The position numbers and the translations under genes were made by a program. Shown in pieces: positions 1 to 5,831 of a stretch of DNA of 5,831 nucleotides. Origin of the DNA: an uncultured bacterium (GTDB lineage: Bacteria; Patescibacteria; JAEDAM01; Absconditabacterales; Absconditicoccaceae); NCBI GenBank assembly GCA_937950065.1, contig CALFEN010000279.1:1-5831 (forward strand), read 5' to 3'. How positions within the stretch are numbered: position 1 is the stretch's first letter; each line of letters starts with the position of its first letter. A model generated the notes under the pieces. The model searched no databases. It saw only the letters and a list, made by a program, of their open reading frames with translations, and was not told where the DNA came from.

Positions 1-218
1 TTTTTATAAATCACTCTTTGCCTACTAGGAAAAATAAATCTGAATTTATCAAAGATTTATGAATCAACGTATTTGTAGACGATTACTATGATTACTGCAC
101 TGACATTGCTCAAACATGAATAAACGTCTATATGCCTACCAAACCGTGGAATGTGCACTATCAAAGTCTGCCACAAAATATTATAAGAATAGATAACTTG
201 AAAGATTTAGTATTTTAG
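1..218 (+). CDS. HAD-family phosphatase / 5'-nucleotidase-like protein, C-terminal part (5'-truncated by window edge)
   Basis: Read from base 3 with TGA as Gly, this frame gives 71 residues ending at TAG 216-218. It contains two in-frame TGA codons (60-62 and 117-119), both at plausible Gly positions (DLGIN and QTGIN). It carries the last two HAD landmarks: a Lys in KSEF (motif III) and the VDD pair of motif IV, followed by a VYMPTKPWN segment. The same segments recur in the complete HAD gene at 720-1316. By eye the two C-termini share well over half their residues, so they are paralogues. HAD proteins of this kind are usually phosphomonoesterases acting on nucleotides or small phosphates; the substrate cannot be told here. 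The N-terminal nucleophile Asp lies outside the window, so it is unknown whether this copy is intact. The next gene begins 8 bases after its stop. Confidence 0.7.
129..164 (+). repeat. duplicated segment of HAD paralogues, copy 1
   Basis: These 36 bases match 1227-1262 with a single difference (T152 versus C1250). They encode the MPTKPWNVHYQ block in both HAD genes. This is the best-conserved part of a longer paralogous duplication, not an independent element. Confidence 0.75.
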
Positions 219-226: not shown

Positions 227-718
227 ATGCCTCCTATAATTTATTCAAATTGTGAGCAAATAAATTTATTTTGATACAAGATTTATGAATCAGTATTTAA
301 TGTATTTTCTATGAATATATTATTTTTGATAATATTTATATTTAGTATCAAATTTTTTATAAATCGTATATCAAAATTTTTTTGAATAGAAGAATTCATA
401 ATAAAAAAATTCATATTGCTGTTGATATTCCAGTTAATTTTAGTATTTATTACTATATTAATATTTCATTATTTGGATTCAAATATATATTACTTTGGTA
501 GACGATTTTCAATATATGATAGATTAATAATATTTATTGTTTTGGATTTATTACTTTTGTATTTTATATCAAAGAGATATTTTAAAAATAATAAGTTAAG
601 ATCTTCGTTAGTTGTTTCTATGTCGATGATAATATTGGAAGTGCTAGAAATATATCTTTTCCACCAAGGAATGTTATATTTGACTTCTTTTCATGCTTTT
701 AGATCATGTGCAATATAA
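227..718 (+). CDS. small multi-pass membrane protein, function unknown
   Basis: With TGA as Gly the frame runs 163 residues from ATG 227 to TAA 716-718. Two in-frame TGA codons (272-274 and 383-385) would truncate it under the standard code. The protein is very rich in Ile, Leu and Phe. About four hydrophobic stretches look like membrane helices: near residues 29-45, 63-84, 100-116 and 127-148, with short basic loops between them (for example SKRYFKNNK). There is no obvious signal peptide or catalytic motif, and I do not recognise the family. A resemblance of its first residues to prolipoprotein diacylglyceryl transferase starts is too weak to use. It sits between two paralogous HAD genes, with gaps of 8 bases upstream and 1 base downstream, so the three are probably one transcript. 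A shorter product from ATG 311 is possible, but the AGGA before 227 favours the longer form. Confidence 0.6.
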
Positions 719-719
719 T

Positions 720-1316
720 ATGATACTTCAGATAAAAAATGTAAACATAGGTATAGACCTAGATGAAATTTTGGCTGATACAGTCAGAGAATTTTTAAAT
801 TATTCCCAAACAAAGTTTGATATAAAACTTGAACGAGATTGACTTTACAATTATTTTTTACAAGATGTGAAAGAAAGTTGAATAAATAAAGAACAATTTT
901 TTGGATTGTGGAAAGGATTTGTGGAGGCTGGTCATACAAGAAATATAGCTCCTATCAAATGAAGCTACGAACTTTTGTCCCACCTCAAAAATAATTGAAA
1001 TAAGATATTTGTAATTACTGGCAGACACAATTTTGAAAAAACAAACACTGAATACTGGTTAAATAAAAATTATCCAAATCTTGTAGATGATTTGATTTTT
1101 ACAAATTTTCTGTCATCAGATATGAGATTAAAATCTGAATATATAAACAAATATGAAATAAAATTATTTTTTGATGATATATATGATTTCTGTACTGACG
1201 TAGCAGTAAATTCAAATATTCCTGTATATATGCCTACCAAACCGTGGAACGTGCACTATCAAGATTTACCCCAAAATATTATAAGAATAGATAGTCTTGA
1301 AACTCTGTTAGTATAA
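720..1316 (+). CDS. HAD-superfamily phosphatase / 5'(3')-deoxyribonucleotidase-like protein
   Basis: This 198-residue protein starts at ATG 720, one base after the preceding stop, and ends at TAA 1314-1316. Four in-frame TGA codons (residues 41, 54, 81, 93) must be read as Gly. All four HAD motifs are in order: nucleophile and acid in GIDLDEILADT (Asp13, Asp15), motif II in VITGR (Thr100), motif III Lys138 in RLKSEY, and motif IV Asp152-Asp153 in FFDD. The region between motifs I and II (about residues 22-80) fits a small helical C1 cap. Length and layout match the cytosolic 5'(3')-nucleotidase / YqfW-like group, which removes phosphate from nucleotides with Mg2+; the exact substrate is inference. 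The C-terminal MPTKPWNVHY block is nearly identical to that of the truncated paralogue at the left edge. No good ribosome binding site is seen, so translation may be coupled to the membrane protein gene. Confidence 0.75.
1227..1262 (+). repeat. duplicated segment of HAD paralogues, copy 2
   Basis: Partner of 129-164, with one mismatch over 36 bases. Similarity continues downstream through the segment that encodes QNIIRID in both genes. Confidence 0.75.
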
Positions 1317-1317
1317 A

Positions 1318-1341
1318 AATTAATTTGTAAAGAAATTAATT
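1318..1341 (+). terminator. AT-only hairpin after the HAD gene
   Basis: A perfect 9-bp inverted repeat, AATTAATTT and AAATTAATT around the 6-base loop GTAAAG, begins 1 base after the HAD stop. It is followed by only a short T run. It may act as a weak terminator for the + strand cluster. The stem has no G-C pairs, so its activity is uncertain. Confidence 0.4.
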
Positions 1342-1348
1342 TAATGGA

Positions 1349-1378
1349 AAGCCCCATTCTGCGGACAGGACGGGGCTT
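1349..1378 (-). terminator. intrinsic terminator of the transporter gene
   Basis: On the - strand, AAGCCCC (1378-1372) pairs with GGGGCTT (1355-1349). The inner arm continues with a G-T wobble, T-A, one C/A mismatch and CTG/CAG, closing on the tetraloop TCCG. This is about a 13-position stem with one mismatch, followed by TTTCC and an AT-rich tail. The 5' arm starts inside the TAA stop codon of the transporter gene. It is the most G+C-rich structure in the window and matches its gene in composition, so it probably arrived with it. Confidence 0.7.
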
Positions 1379-2057
1379 AAAAAAGGGCAGTGAAAAAGAG
1401 ATAGCAGGAAACAAAGAAAAGGGTGATCCCTCTTACTATGTCCTTGCTCAAGAATACGGACGTAGCTACGAAAAGGAACTTTCCCCAGCCCCAAAGGTTG
1501 TACCCTGTTGGACGAGCCGGATAAGTATCGATTCGCTTCCAGAGAAATACGAACTGAACCATCAGCGTGACGCCTGTTATTACCCCTAGGAAAAAAGCAA
1601 AGATTTCGCAAGTGCTTCTTCCCAGAATTATTGCAAGGTTTACACTGATGTCGTCTGAACTATTCAGCAGATATCCTCCAAAAGCAAGCCAGAAGAAGTT
1701 TGCTTTTTTTGTTTGTAAATTCTCCTTTTGAGAGTCTTCTGCTTTTGAAGGACAAAAGATTTTATAGGTTAAGCAAAGTACAATAAACCCAGCCAGTATT
1801 TGGATATATTTCAATCCTGAAGGGACTTCCTTCGTAATTTTTTGAAGTATCAGCACGATGATTATCATCACGCCTACGGCACTAGCCAATCCCAAAACCG
1901 GTTGAAAATTTTTACCTTGCTTATGCGACTGTATATATATCTCCCGGAAAATCAGGAGATCATCTACACCAGTCGCACACCACGCCAATACTCCCCAAAA
2001 GAATGCTGCTAAAAGGGGCATCTTTTGTTGGAGATATGTCAAAAGCGACTGGTCCAT
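1377..2057 (-). CDS. CadD/LysE-superfamily-like membrane transporter, probable heavy-metal (cadmium) exporter
   Basis: The gene encodes 226 residues. It is mostly membrane, with hydrophobic stretches near 12-30, 54-71, 83-101, 121-145, 151-172 and 208-226, and a charged loop at about 103-118. Two related Asp pairs stand out: GVDD (Asp32-Asp33) after the first helix, and NSSDD (Asp135-Asp136) in the second half. This two-fold acidic pattern and length fit the CadD-type cadmium resistance transporters of the LysE superfamily; the metal is inferred. I chose ATG 2057 because AGGTAGGAG lies just upstream and because the longer in-frame start at 2117 would overlap the end of the diguanylate cyclase gene. 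The gene is strikingly more GC-rich than its neighbours, and all 16 glycines are GGN with no TGA. It lies 32 bases downstream of the cyclase on the same strand and ends in a strong terminator. TerC-type transporters are a less likely alternative. Confidence 0.6.
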   Translation of the reverse strand: MDQSLLTYLQQKMPLLAAFFWGVLAWCATGVDDLLIFREIYIQSHKQGKNFQPVLGLASAVGVMIIIVLILQKITKEVPSGLKYIQILAGFIVLCLTYKIFCPSKAEDSQKENLQTKKANFFWLAFGGYLLNSSDDISVNLAIILGRSTCEIFAFFLGVITGVTLMVQFVFLWKRIDTYPARPTGYNLWGWGKFLFVATSVFLSKDIVRGITLFFVSCYLFFTALF

Positions 2058-2059
2058 TT

Positions 2060-2068
2060 CTCCTACCT
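2060..2068 (-). promoter_or_regulatory. strong ribosome binding site of the transporter gene
   Basis: The - strand reads AGGTAGGAG, then AA and the ATG at 2057. It decides the start codon (226-residue form). Such a strong purine-rich site is not seen before the recoded genes of this window, which adds to the impression that this gene came from elsewhere. Confidence 0.55.
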
Positions 2069-2089
2069 TTTTTGTTAATATTTTTAGTC

Positions 2090-3352
2090 TTATGAGACTA
2101 CTAATTTGTTTCTTCAAGTGTTTTTTGCTTCATAAAGAGCATTGTCTGCTTTTTTGAATGCAGCTGGCTTATCTCAATTTATAGCAGATATTCATATAGA
2201 TACAGTTTTCATAAGTTCTGTTCAGTTATTCAATTTTATAACTTTTTTTCTCACGTTTTCCAATATACGTTCTGCTACCAAAACAGCCTGTTCTTGTGTC
2301 TCTACATCAAGATATACTACAAATTCTTCTCATCAGGTTCTATGAACAGTTCACTCATTTTCTTGTACTTCTGTCCTTTGAGAATAGACTTTGTCTTCTA
2401 TTCTTAAAGAATTTTTTATGGTTTTTGCTATTTCTCTAAGTACTATATCTCCATTATCATGTCAGTATGTATCATTCACTGATTTAAAATGATCTATGTC
2501 CAATGCTAGTAAATATCATTTTTTATAATTGCTTCTTTCCCAGTATTTTCTGTTGTAAAGAGTTGTAAGTTCGTCTTTGTATAGATCGTCCATAGTCTCC
2601 AATATTTTTATCATATTCGCTATACCAAAAGCCATTCAATCTATCATAGCTATTTGATTTTCCACACTTTTTGCTTCTGTATATTTATCTCCTGATATAT
2701 ATATTCATTCAGCAGCTTCCACTACAAAATCTTCTCATACTCATTCTATAGGAATTGCAGATATTTTTAATCAATTTGTGGTTTCGGTATATTTTCAGTT
2801 CACTAGATTATATAAATTTTTATAATTATTTTCATCAGGGATCAATTTATAGTCAAAAATTATCTCTCAATCTTTTTTGATAGTTTTTTTTGTAAAACAG
2901 TTTCCAGTTTTGATATAAAAAGAAAGTTCATCAAAATCTGTAAGCATCATAAGTTGTTCCATAATTTCACTCATTCCGTCTGTCAGATGCCTTCACTTGA
3001 TATCTTCTATAGTCAGTTTAAATTGAAATCTTGTCAAAACATTTAATAACTCTATTGGTATATATTTATCAAGATTGGAGATAATTTCTAAAATCAGATA
3101 AATTTTTTTAGTAATATTATTTATTTTTTCATTTTTATATTCATATACCAAAAGTTTTATTATAGATAATTTAATCATGTCAGTAAAAAACTTAAGCAGT
3201 TTAGTAATATCTTCAGATTTATATTCATGCGTTAAGACTTTTGTTATAGAATGTTTTGTCATATCAGTAAAAAATTTAAGCAGTTCATTTGTAGTATCTG
3301 CTCATTCGTATTCGTAATCTATATATTTTTCCAAGAGATTTTTAAATGACAT
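2090..3352 (-). CDS. diguanylate cyclase with N-terminal repeats, GAF-like region and C-terminal GGDEF domain
   Basis: Read with TGA as Gly, this is a 420-residue protein from ATG 3352 to TAA 2092-2090. A TAA lies in frame 12 bases upstream of the ATG, so the start cannot lie further out. I count 18 in-frame TGA codons against 5 GGN. Residues 23-78 are two copies of a 28-residue unit (ELLKFFTDM / KLLKFFTDM). About 120-250 looks like a degenerate GAF-type sensor. The GGDEF domain starts at DELTTLYNR (260-268), followed by the metal-binding DIDHFK (285-290), YGHDNGD, GGEEF (340-344), VSIGIS and a terminal YEAKNTGRN. All key residues for making c-di-GMP from two GTP are present, so it is probably active. 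An RIED (317-320) could be the inhibitory RxxD site, but it lies about 14 residues further from GGEEF than usual. There is no clear membrane segment, so it is probably cytoplasmic. It diverges from the Elp3 gene; the transporter follows. Confidence 0.88.
3119..3286 (-). repeat. two tandem 84-base units in the diguanylate cyclase gene
   Basis: Units 3286-3203 and 3202-3119 encode residues 23-50 and 51-78 of the cyclase. By eye, 18 of 28 residues are identical, led by LLKFFTDM, with a shared EYK near the end of each unit. A partial earlier copy may sit at residues 6-17 (YEYE). The repeats are in frame and predicted helical. Confidence 0.7.
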
Positions 3353-3524
3353 ATCAAAATATTAAATAAAAAGTCATTTATTTAATAATAATGTTAAGCT
3401 CAAAGTCAAGATTAATATTATTTTTTCCTACGCTAAATTTTTTGTAAAAATCAAAACAATAATTTATACCTTGAATTTTTTCACAAATTTCTTATTATAA
3501 AATAGTTTATAAAATATATAATTT
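3353..3524. promoter_or_regulatory. divergent intergenic region with promoters for the cyclase and Elp3
   Basis: 172 very AT-rich bases separate the two divergent starts, so both promoters should lie here. For Elp3 a possible -35 TTGAAT (3471-3476) and -10 TATAAA (3496-3501) can be drawn with a 19-base spacer, which is longer than ideal. An imperfect inverted repeat between about 3382 and 3419 (AATAATAATGTTAA against TTAATATTATT) is a possible operator but could be AT-bias chance. No Shine-Dalgarno-like sequence precedes either start codon. Confidence 0.35.
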
Positions 3525-5345
3525 ATGACCATAGAAGAACTAATAATAAATTTTTTAAATTCTTGAGAGTTGGACGAAGATTGAGTTAGAAATGCAAAAA
3601 GACAATTTGCCAAGGCAAATAAACTTTCAAATCTACCTACCAATATTCAGTTACTAAAAACATACCGTAGACTTGTGCAGGATTGAAGTATTATCAAAGA
3701 TACCAAATTTGAGCAGCTTCTCAAAAAAAGAGCCATCCGTTCCCTTTCAGGGATTGTGCCGATTCAAGTGTTAACCAAACCTTTTCCGTGCAGTGGAGAA
3801 TGTATTTTTTGCCCAAACGATGCTACCATGCCCAAAAGTTATATAAACACAGAACCGGGTGCAATGAGAGCTTTTCTCAATGAATTTGATCCTCTAAAAC
3901 AGGTTTATAATAGACTCTTGTCTTTGCAGATTACAGGACACAATACTGATAAAATAGAAATGATTGTTTTGTGATGAACTTTTGACTGTTATCCAAGGGA
4001 TTATAAAATAAGCTTTGTCAAAGCTCTTTTTGATGCCTGTAATACTTTTGATGAATATTATAAATTTGTGGAAATAGATGAAAATAATCCAAAATCCGCC
4101 AAATTCACAGTATCCGAAAATTTGGATATAAAATATCCAGATACTTTAACTCAATCGCAGGACATCAATGAAACTGCCTGACACAGGATTATCTGACTAA
4201 CTATAGAAACCAGACCCGACTATGTAAACGATGAAAACTGCAGATTTTGGAGAGAACTTGGAGTCACTAGGATAGAAATCGGTATACAGTCGTTATTTGA
4301 TGACGTTCTCAAAGCTAATAAAAGATGAACCACTGTCCAGCAGATTAGACAGGCTCTGCACAAACTCAGACAATATTGATTTAAATTTTCAGCACATTTT
4401 ATGCCTGGTCTGTATGGCTCCGATATTGCCAGAGATATCCAGACTATGGAACTTGCTTACAGCGATAGATATATCAAGCCTGATGAAATCAAATTTTATC
4501 CGGTTTCTGTAATACCAAACACAGAGCTTTTCCAGTTGTATCAGGAGTGAAAATACAAACCTATAAATGAAGAAGATTTGGCTTATCTGATAGAATATGT
4601 CAAAATGAATATTATCCCGCCTTATACTAGAATCAAAAGACTTATAAGAGATATCCCAAGCACAGAAATAGTAGCTTGAACAAAAACTACAAACATGAGA
4701 CAGCTTGTAGAAACTCATCTTAAGGATAAACTAAAAAACTCTCCAGAACTTCAAAAAAATTTGTTTGAAAAGCTTTATCCTTGTGTATTAAATTTTCAGA
4801 CTGAACAGGAATTTTTTGACAATCTCTGAAATTTATGAGAAACCGATGAATTGGAAACTTTCTTGATTTGAGATAATTTTGACGGACAAACAAAATCTGA
4901 ATTTATATGTCTGTGCACTAGATGCAGGGAAATTAGAAACCAAAAAACAAAACAGGAAAACGCCGTTCTCGTAGTAAGGAGATATTTTAGTAGTGTTTGA
5001 GAAGAATTTTTTATTTCATGGGAAGACGCAAGTTGATATTTATATGGATTTGTAAGACTGTTATTGCCGCAGGCCGGTGAAACAATAGATTGGCATGGAC
5101 TATGAAAAGGCTGTGCACTTGTCAGGGAATTGCACGTTTATTGACAGCTCGCCAAAATCAGCGAAAAATCAAATGATAAATCCCAGCATAAATGATTTGG
5201 TTCCACGTTAATGGAATTTGCTGAAAAAATAGCTCAAATTAGAAATTATAAAAAAATTTCTGTAATTTCTGGTATTTGAGTAAAAGGTTTTTACAAAAAA
5301 ATTTGATACACTGAAGAAGGCACTTACGTTGTAAAACCTCTGTAG
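3525..5345 (+). CDS. elp3: Elp3-family tRNA U34 carboxymethyltransferase (radical SAM plus GNAT)
   Basis: With TGA as Gly this is a 606-residue protein from ATG 3525 (TAA sits two codons upstream) to TAG 5343-5345. I count about 21 TGA and 17 GGN glycine codons. The radical-SAM cluster motif CxxxCxxC is CSGECIFC (Cys89, Cys93, Cys96). Elp3 signatures follow: LGGTFDCYPR (GG = 150-151, both TGA), TIETRPD (226-232), HFMPGLYGS (from His291), PPYTRIKRLIRDIP (from 365), and a Cys-rich CLCTRCRE (462-468). The C-terminal GNAT half has ELHVYG and the acetyl-CoA-binding QHKGFG (554-559), and ends with FYKKIGY. Known Elp3 proteins use SAM and acetyl-CoA to make carboxymethyl-type modification of uridine 34 in the tRNA anticodon, which tunes decoding; bacterial and archaeal forms work without the other Elongator subunits. 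Both catalytic halves are complete and in frame. It is transcribed divergently from the cyclase gene. Confidence 0.93.
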
Positions 5346-5740: not shown

Positions 5741-5831
5741 ATGACAAAACTTATTTATCTGCAAGATACATATTTATTCGACTATTATGCCCAGATTATC
5801 GACATTACAGAGATACAATGAAGAACTGATA
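5741..5831 (+). CDS. alanyl-tRNA editing protein (AlaX-like), N-terminal fragment
   Basis: The frame from ATG 5741 runs off the right edge after 30 codons. It begins MTKLIYLQDTYLFDYYAQII and has a TGA codon at 5819-5821, read as Gly (IQGRTD). The opening pattern KLIYLQDTYL followed by a beta-strand (YAQIIDI) matches the usual start of AlaX-type editing proteins and the related editing part of alanyl-tRNA synthetase, which hydrolyse mischarged tRNA(Ala). The diagnostic metal-binding HxxxH and CxxxH motifs would lie beyond the window, so the call rests on the first residues only. The upstream 100 bases are very AT-rich, with TATATTAT at 5723-5730 as a possible -10 box. No Shine-Dalgarno-like site is seen. 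Confidence 0.5.

Follow-up and report, generated by a model that had tools for sequence, protein, structure and literature searches.

In a 5,831-nt stretch of DNA (contig CALFEN010000279.1 of assembly GCA_937950065.1; "the window" below means this whole stretch), TGA is glycine, the already known genetic code listed by NCBI as code 25. We put at about 0.97 the probability of the full reading, in which UGA encodes glycine, UAA and UAG are stops and UGG is tryptophan, in what appears to be an uncultivated Absconditabacteria-type patescibacterium. A reading made from the letters alone (the sequence-only reading) had proposed glycine UGA across the window, and this stood for five TGA-bearing frames (Table 1), among them genes for Elp3, a diguanylate cyclase and a 5' nucleotidase, but not for a CadD/TerC-like gene at 1377-2057 that has no TGA. 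That gene is the one modest lead in the window, the rest being the correct reading of a known code.

Sense TGA opens five frames on both strands

The five frames contain 47 in-frame TGA codons (2, 2, 4, 18 and 21 in the order of Table 1), and all terminate with TAA or TAG and have neither codon internally. With only TAA and TAG as stops, the longest frames in the window reached 607 and 423 codons, far above the longest frames in 300 dinucleotide-preserving shuffles scored in the same way (mean 127, maximum 228 codons). When TGA was counted as a stop too, the longest frame fell to 250 codons and was that of the TGA-free gene, while translation with table 11 reduced Elp3 and the cyclase to fragments. 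All five frames named by the sequence-only reading were thus present, with TAA and TAG still terminating them. The first frame enters across the window edge, in phase with base 3; the third, which has an ATG at 720, is free of stops from position 693 onwards.

That the frames are broken under table 11 is also what would be seen if UGA were a stop and the frames were decayed pseudogenes or depended on readthrough. We regard this as having next to no chance of being right: the interruptions are TGA only, never TAA or TAG; TGA falls mostly on conserved glycine columns, contrary to such an account; and the Elp3 genes of related genomes also carry in-frame TGA, those genomes having no prfB match over the cut-off.

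TGA codons lie mostly on glycine columns

To read the meaning of TGA from conservation, each TGA of the window Elp3 gene was rendered as X and the protein was aligned to nine Elp3 proteins whose genes have no in-frame TGA (eight from related genomes, one from a Parcubacteria contig), so that their letters are independent of what TGA means. One of these rows, L011, was kept although its genome, G035, has another Elp3 with 8 TGA; L011 itself is TGA-free, but the coexistence of the two genes leaves the code of G035 unsure. Among the 21 TGA codons 18 could be aligned, and 12 of these 18 columns were glycine in at least eight of the nine homologues, with a thirteenth glycine in 5/9. Over all 18 columns glycine made up 113 of 162 residues and tryptophan a single one, and columns of the GGN codons in this gene behaved similarly (glycine 89/141). 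The log-likelihood for the 18 columns was +27.2 for glycine and -15.3 for tryptophan.

A second test used the GGDEF part of the cyclase, from residue 251 on, against nine of 12 loci (L103, L107 and L110 were dropped for internal stops). Nine of the cyclase's 18 TGA codons lie within this part, eight of them on columns present in the nine relatives, where 48/72 residues were glycine and 0/72 tryptophan (log-likelihood +10.3 and -8.2, respectively). Five of the eight columns were glycine in all nine relatives, namely those of the GGEEF and YGHD glycines plus two others. GG[DE]EF is the signature of diguanylate cyclases, and in the window both of its glycines are written TGA. In both proteins glycine was preferred over every other amino acid at the TGA columns. 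These alignments, which the sequence-only reading had set as its check, bore it out, and each of the motifs it had pointed to (GGEEF, YGHD, LGGTF, HKGFG and KIGY) has at least one TGA glycine on a glycine column.

For the nucleotidase, 17 of 24 loci were aligned (L185 and L190-L195 were dropped), and two of its four TGA columns were glycine in 16/17 relatives; there is some circularity in this test, as 15 of those 17 are themselves TGA-bearing and were read with TGA as glycine. The two TGA-free relatives have glycine and glycine at column 81, and glycine and a gap at column 93. The same alignment bears on UGG, since TGG codons 113 and 176 fall on tryptophan columns (13/17 each), while the column of TGG 64 is tryptophan in 3/17. 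It had been claimed that tryptophan is still written TGG and that the code is therefore not the Mycoplasma-type code 4, and these two columns agree.

Under code 4 UGA would be tryptophan, as it appears in a protein catalogue entry, P0004, which is 97% identical to the window Elp3 and by eye has tryptophan letters at the window's TGA sites; these letters indicate that the catalogue translation took TGA as tryptophan. Code 4 is hardly credible for the window itself given that tryptophan accounts for only 1/162 residues at the Elp3 TGA columns and 0/72 at those of GGDEF, that two tryptophan columns of the nucleotidase are written TGG, and that related genomes carry a tRNA(UCA) whose identity bases are those of glycine, together with a separate tRNA-Trp(CCA), found in both genomes scanned. 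The catalogue thus carries this organism's Elp3 with tryptophan in place of glycine, and the choice of translation table matters.

Release factors and tRNA(UCA) in related genomes

Related genomes with TGA in their Elp3 genes (22 TGA codons in G001, 25 in G008, 11 in G012, 10 in G014 and 3 in G029) were searched with models of prfA and prfB. In these five genomes both models matched one shared full-length locus, with prfA the better match, and the prfA cut-off was passed in G014 and G029 only. No prfB match over the cut-off was found in six TGA-bearing genomes, the sixth being G002, for which the prfB model alone was used. In two TGA-free relatives, G039 and G047, prfA and prfB were both over the cut-off. 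The prfB controls were imperfect: in TGA-free G367 prfB was found in pieces below the cut-off, and in the Parcubacteria genome G003 it was also below.

The scanned stretches of G008 and G012 yielded a single UCA-anticodon tRNA per genome, which ARAGORN assigned to SeC. Inspected by eye, the two share G1:C72, C2:G71, G3:C70 and U73, bases that match the glycine identity rule for tRNA(UCA) described in PMC8629427. In G008, TGA makes up 15,384 of 21,821 glycine codons in open reading frames (ORFs) taken from a simple longest-ORF caller. Together with these data, a mechanism can be proposed in which a UCA-anticodon tRNA-Gly would decode UGA once release factor 2 had been lost, and the window's own genome would then be expected to have this tRNA and no prfB. 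No tRNA gene was detected in the window.

Lineage of the window and its Elp3 relatives

The nearest Elp3 relative found was P0005 (75% identity), and the next, at 55-59%, include P0006 (source name Absconditabacteria) and P0008 (Vampirococcus lugosii). A scan of genome contigs gave three relatives, of which two bear the title Gracilibacteria (52 and 56%) and the third Parcubacteria (39%). In an Elp3 tree of 38 rows, the window and P0005 joined with support of 100/100 and P0006 was their sister (93/94); a division supported at 100/100 set the nine TGA-free rows apart from the remaining 29, among which L001, a relative titled Gracilibacteria, was basal. Several catalogue rows with tryptophan letters at probable TGA sites, including P0005, P0007, P0009 and P0010, were flagged for composition, and L002 was left out. 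Judged from these sequences, the window is probably of the Absconditabacteria type.

We considered whether Elp3, a tRNA U34 enzyme, is a modifier tied to the recoding and rejected it as code-specific because TGA-free relatives carry Elp3 too. The protein was above the cut-off in 47 of 59 relatives, TGA-bearing and TGA-free alike, and 120 of the class's 145 genomes had a match to it (E <= 0.001); a search of viral contigs for Elp3 gave no match. Some genomes hold two copies: G048 has two TGA-bearing genes, with 27 and 20 TGA (contigs C20 and C13), and the TGA-free and TGA-bearing genes of G035 lie on contigs C15 and C17. The TGA-bearing Elp3 proteins of the class form two rough groups by their identity to the window, one at about 44-60% and one at about 35-41%, which suggests that there may be two Elp3 types in the class.

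Observations that weigh against the glycine reading

Several observations speak against glycine UGA in this lineage or reduce the reach of the tests. Some TGA codons lie on columns that are not glycine in relatives: 14, 20, 219, 504 and 527 in Elp3 (527 being leucine in 9/9), 29 and 143 in the numbering of the aligned GGDEF part, where 127 is glycine in 3/9, and 41 and 54 in the nucleotidase. Others fell outside the column tests, namely three in an Elp3 insertion, one at a GGDEF gap and nine in the N-terminal part of the cyclase. The TGG columns of Elp3 (three) and GGDEF (one) have other, mostly hydrophobic residues in relatives. Within the recoded window itself stands a gene that has no TGA at all.

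The prfB and tRNA(UCA) results come from related genomes, not from the window's own genome. There, the prfA matches of G001, G008 and G012 are slightly below the prfA cut-off, the G001 match has one TAA inside it, and G029 has an additional short prfB match of 28.8 bits. As for the lineage, the tree tool cautioned about long branches, and its mark of 95 is not reached by the 93/94 join. The name of the group is less sure than the code, as two close relatives are titled Gracilibacteria.

A TGA-free gene inside the recoded window

All 16 glycine codons of the CadD/TerC-like gene are GGN. If it used TGA in the same share as the other frames (47 of 76 glycine codons), the chance of seeing none among 16 would be 2e-7. 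Its GC content is 0.415 vs 0.20-0.34 in the five other genes, and its GC content at third codon positions (GC3) is 0.44, vs 0.28 in Elp3 and 0.20 in the cyclase. Having no in-frame TGA and a TAA stop, the gene reads alike whether TGA is a stop or glycine.

The product scored 21.5 bits against CadD (PF03596; gathering cut-off 26.2) and 15.5 bits against TerC (PF03741; cut-off 27.8), so it lies under both cut-offs. P0001 and P0002 match both models and P0003 matches TerC only; these matches are mostly weak, with P0002 above the TerC cut-off at 30.3 bits. A role in metal export may be supposed from this similarity. The predicted structure was too poor to use (mean predicted local distance difference test score, pLDDT, 42.8).

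The protein database yielded two homologues, P0002 (58% identity) and P0003 (55%), and a profile search, which needs shared 5-residue words, gave none beyond these. No match to the gene was found in plasmids by DNA or protein, none of 266 pattern stretches in viral contigs was confirmed, and 286 genomes of the phylum gave one weak match to the protein (30% over 82 residues, E 3.5e-4). A donor was thus not found in plasmid, viral, phylum-genome or protein searches, phage and E. coli collections not having been searched and genome contigs having been scanned with Elp3 only.

P0003 and P0005, the nearest Elp3 relative, share a source, and each is reported from one contig only, 6654 bases long; for this reason their genes are probably neighbours in a second organism. 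P0005 has tryptophan letters at 23 of the 31 glycine sites it has in common with the window Elp3, the mark of TGA read as tryptophan. P0003 has 15 glycines and no tryptophan letter on any column where both other proteins have glycine; its tryptophan letters at columns 95 and 194 could be TGA. With the probable linkage, this contrast makes it seem that in a second organism, too, a TGA-rich Elp3 gene has a TGA-free gene next to it.

How the gene came to be there is best answered by the simplest reading, that it was probably acquired horizontally from a canonical-code bacterium, and it illustrates a way for a gene to enter a recoded genome. An assembly chimera, that is, foreign DNA falsely joined into a code-25 contig, would likewise let GC content and glycine codons change at the gene borders, as they do. 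In the catalogue, moreover, the protein of this gene is on three contigs, the longest 13,864 bases, and the window Elp3 is on three, the longest 9,435, so that the two may not always lie together. We think a chimera quite improbable, as code-25 genes lie on both flanks and it would need two false joins; the P0003 and P0005 genes, if they share their contig, would also repeat the arrangement.

Besides horizontal acquisition, we considered a resident gene kept TGA-free by selection, for example by moving between organisms of both codes. P0003 is consistent with such selection, as this protein at 55% identity has no sign of TGA-glycine although P0005 has so many tryptophan letters. The same picture would, however, result from two separate acquisitions from related donors, and the higher GC content of the window gene points to recent arrival. 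TGA-free genes are also rare in the code-25 genome G008 (3 among the 658 ORFs that have 12 glycines or more), and one of these three, a PAP2-family phosphatase gene, looks acquired as well. A resident origin is accordingly unlikely, and we give similarly little credence to the broader proposal that the CadD/TerC-like gene is a member of a small family, represented in the window and probably in the organism of P0003, that is kept UGA-free in UGA-recoded genomes and thus readable in both codes. If that proposal were true, the supposed code barrier would not keep a transporter from being exchanged between code-25 bacteria and their canonical-code neighbours.

Elp3 neighbours were read at 12 code-25 loci of related genomes, and a TGA-free frame with at least 12 glycines adjoins elp3 in three (L018, L019 and L021). 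The genomes of L018 and L019 are sparing with TGA in Elp3 (10/35 and 3/34 glycines). At L021, the PAP2 phosphatase gene of G008 (C1:519761-520558; TGA-free, 20 GGN) ends about 70 bases from a TGA-rich elp3; the other two TGA-free ORFs of G008 look doubtful by eye. The idea that elp3 is an insertion hot spot was dropped, the cases being too few to claim it with 3/12 loci, two of them TGA-sparing.

Gene content of the window

The genes and other features are collected in Table 1. For the first two frames no Pfam or NCBIfam family was matched. Over 71 aa, the protein of the first shares 58% identity with the nucleotidase's C-terminus (70 bases of DNA at 90%), and the two partial paralogues flank the unrelated second frame. 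The N-terminal part of the cyclase gene contains two 84-base tandem copies, 75% identical (3117-3284).

Table 1 Features of the 5,831-nt window, with coordinates in the window
Feature	Position	Strand	Details
C-terminal part of nucleotidase-like protein (partial paralogue of 720-1316)	3..218	+	2 TGA
163-aa protein, hydrophobic by eye	227..718	+	2 TGA, 2 GGN
NT5C-like HAD 5' nucleotidase	720..1316	+	4 TGA; PF06941 37.4 bits
GC-rich terminator-like hairpin, overlapping the stop codon of the 1377-2057 gene	1349..1378	-	pattern scan; fold -17.6 kcal/mol, z -3.29
CadD/TerC-like membrane protein gene	1377..2057	-	226 codons, TAA stop, 0 TGA, 16 GGN, GC3 0.44
Diguanylate cyclase, GGDEF domain at residues 259-416	2090..3352	-	18 TGA; PF00990 108.1 bits (cut-off 23.8)
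Elp3 (radical SAM/GNAT tRNA U34 enzyme)	3525..5345	+	21 TGA; TIGR01211 470.9 bits (curated cut-off 350); PDB Elp3 matches
Beginning of another frame, leaving the window at its end	5741..5830	+	1 TGA

Comparison with known systems

Glycine UGA read with a tRNA(UCA) is established in Absconditabacteria and Gracilibacteria according to PMC8629427, in agreement with the sequence-only reading, which had named it as a known feature of Absconditabacteria (SR1) and Gracilibacteria. Two further papers report that prfB was not detected in BD1-5 genomes (PMC6851277) and that UGA is glycine in Vampirococcus (PMC8080830). The window resembles code 25 in its glycine TGA, its TAA and TAG stops, its low GC content and an Elp3 near proteins named Absconditabacteria, and its relatives do so in having no prfB over the cut-off and, in the two scanned, a tRNA(UCA). 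No difference from code 25 was found in the TGA-bearing genes of the window. The window represents one more lineage for a well-described code and shows that the code can be verified from less than 6 kb.

For Absconditabacteria, PMC8629427 describes CGA and CGG as tryptophan in addition. The window is similar in its low GC content and in writing arginine mostly as AGA, with CGA and CGG nearly absent (the five TGA-bearing frames together have 2 CGA and 0 CGG). The single aligned CGA, in the nucleotidase, leans towards arginine (the column has 6 Arg, 5 Lys and 2 Trp among 17 relatives), and P0005, with arginine at one TGG column of the window, leans towards tryptophan for CGA/CGG. Under the standard reading, nucleotidase tryptophan columns 113 and 176 have arginine in 3/17 and 4/17 relatives, which would fit CGA/CGG as tryptophan in those relatives.

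A close parallel for the TGA-free gene is in the code 11-compatible phages of Gracilibacteria and Absconditabacteria, which, according to PMC10746230, also have TGA-free genes readable in both codes in a code-25 setting. The window differs from those phages in having a single transporter-like gene between cellular genes.

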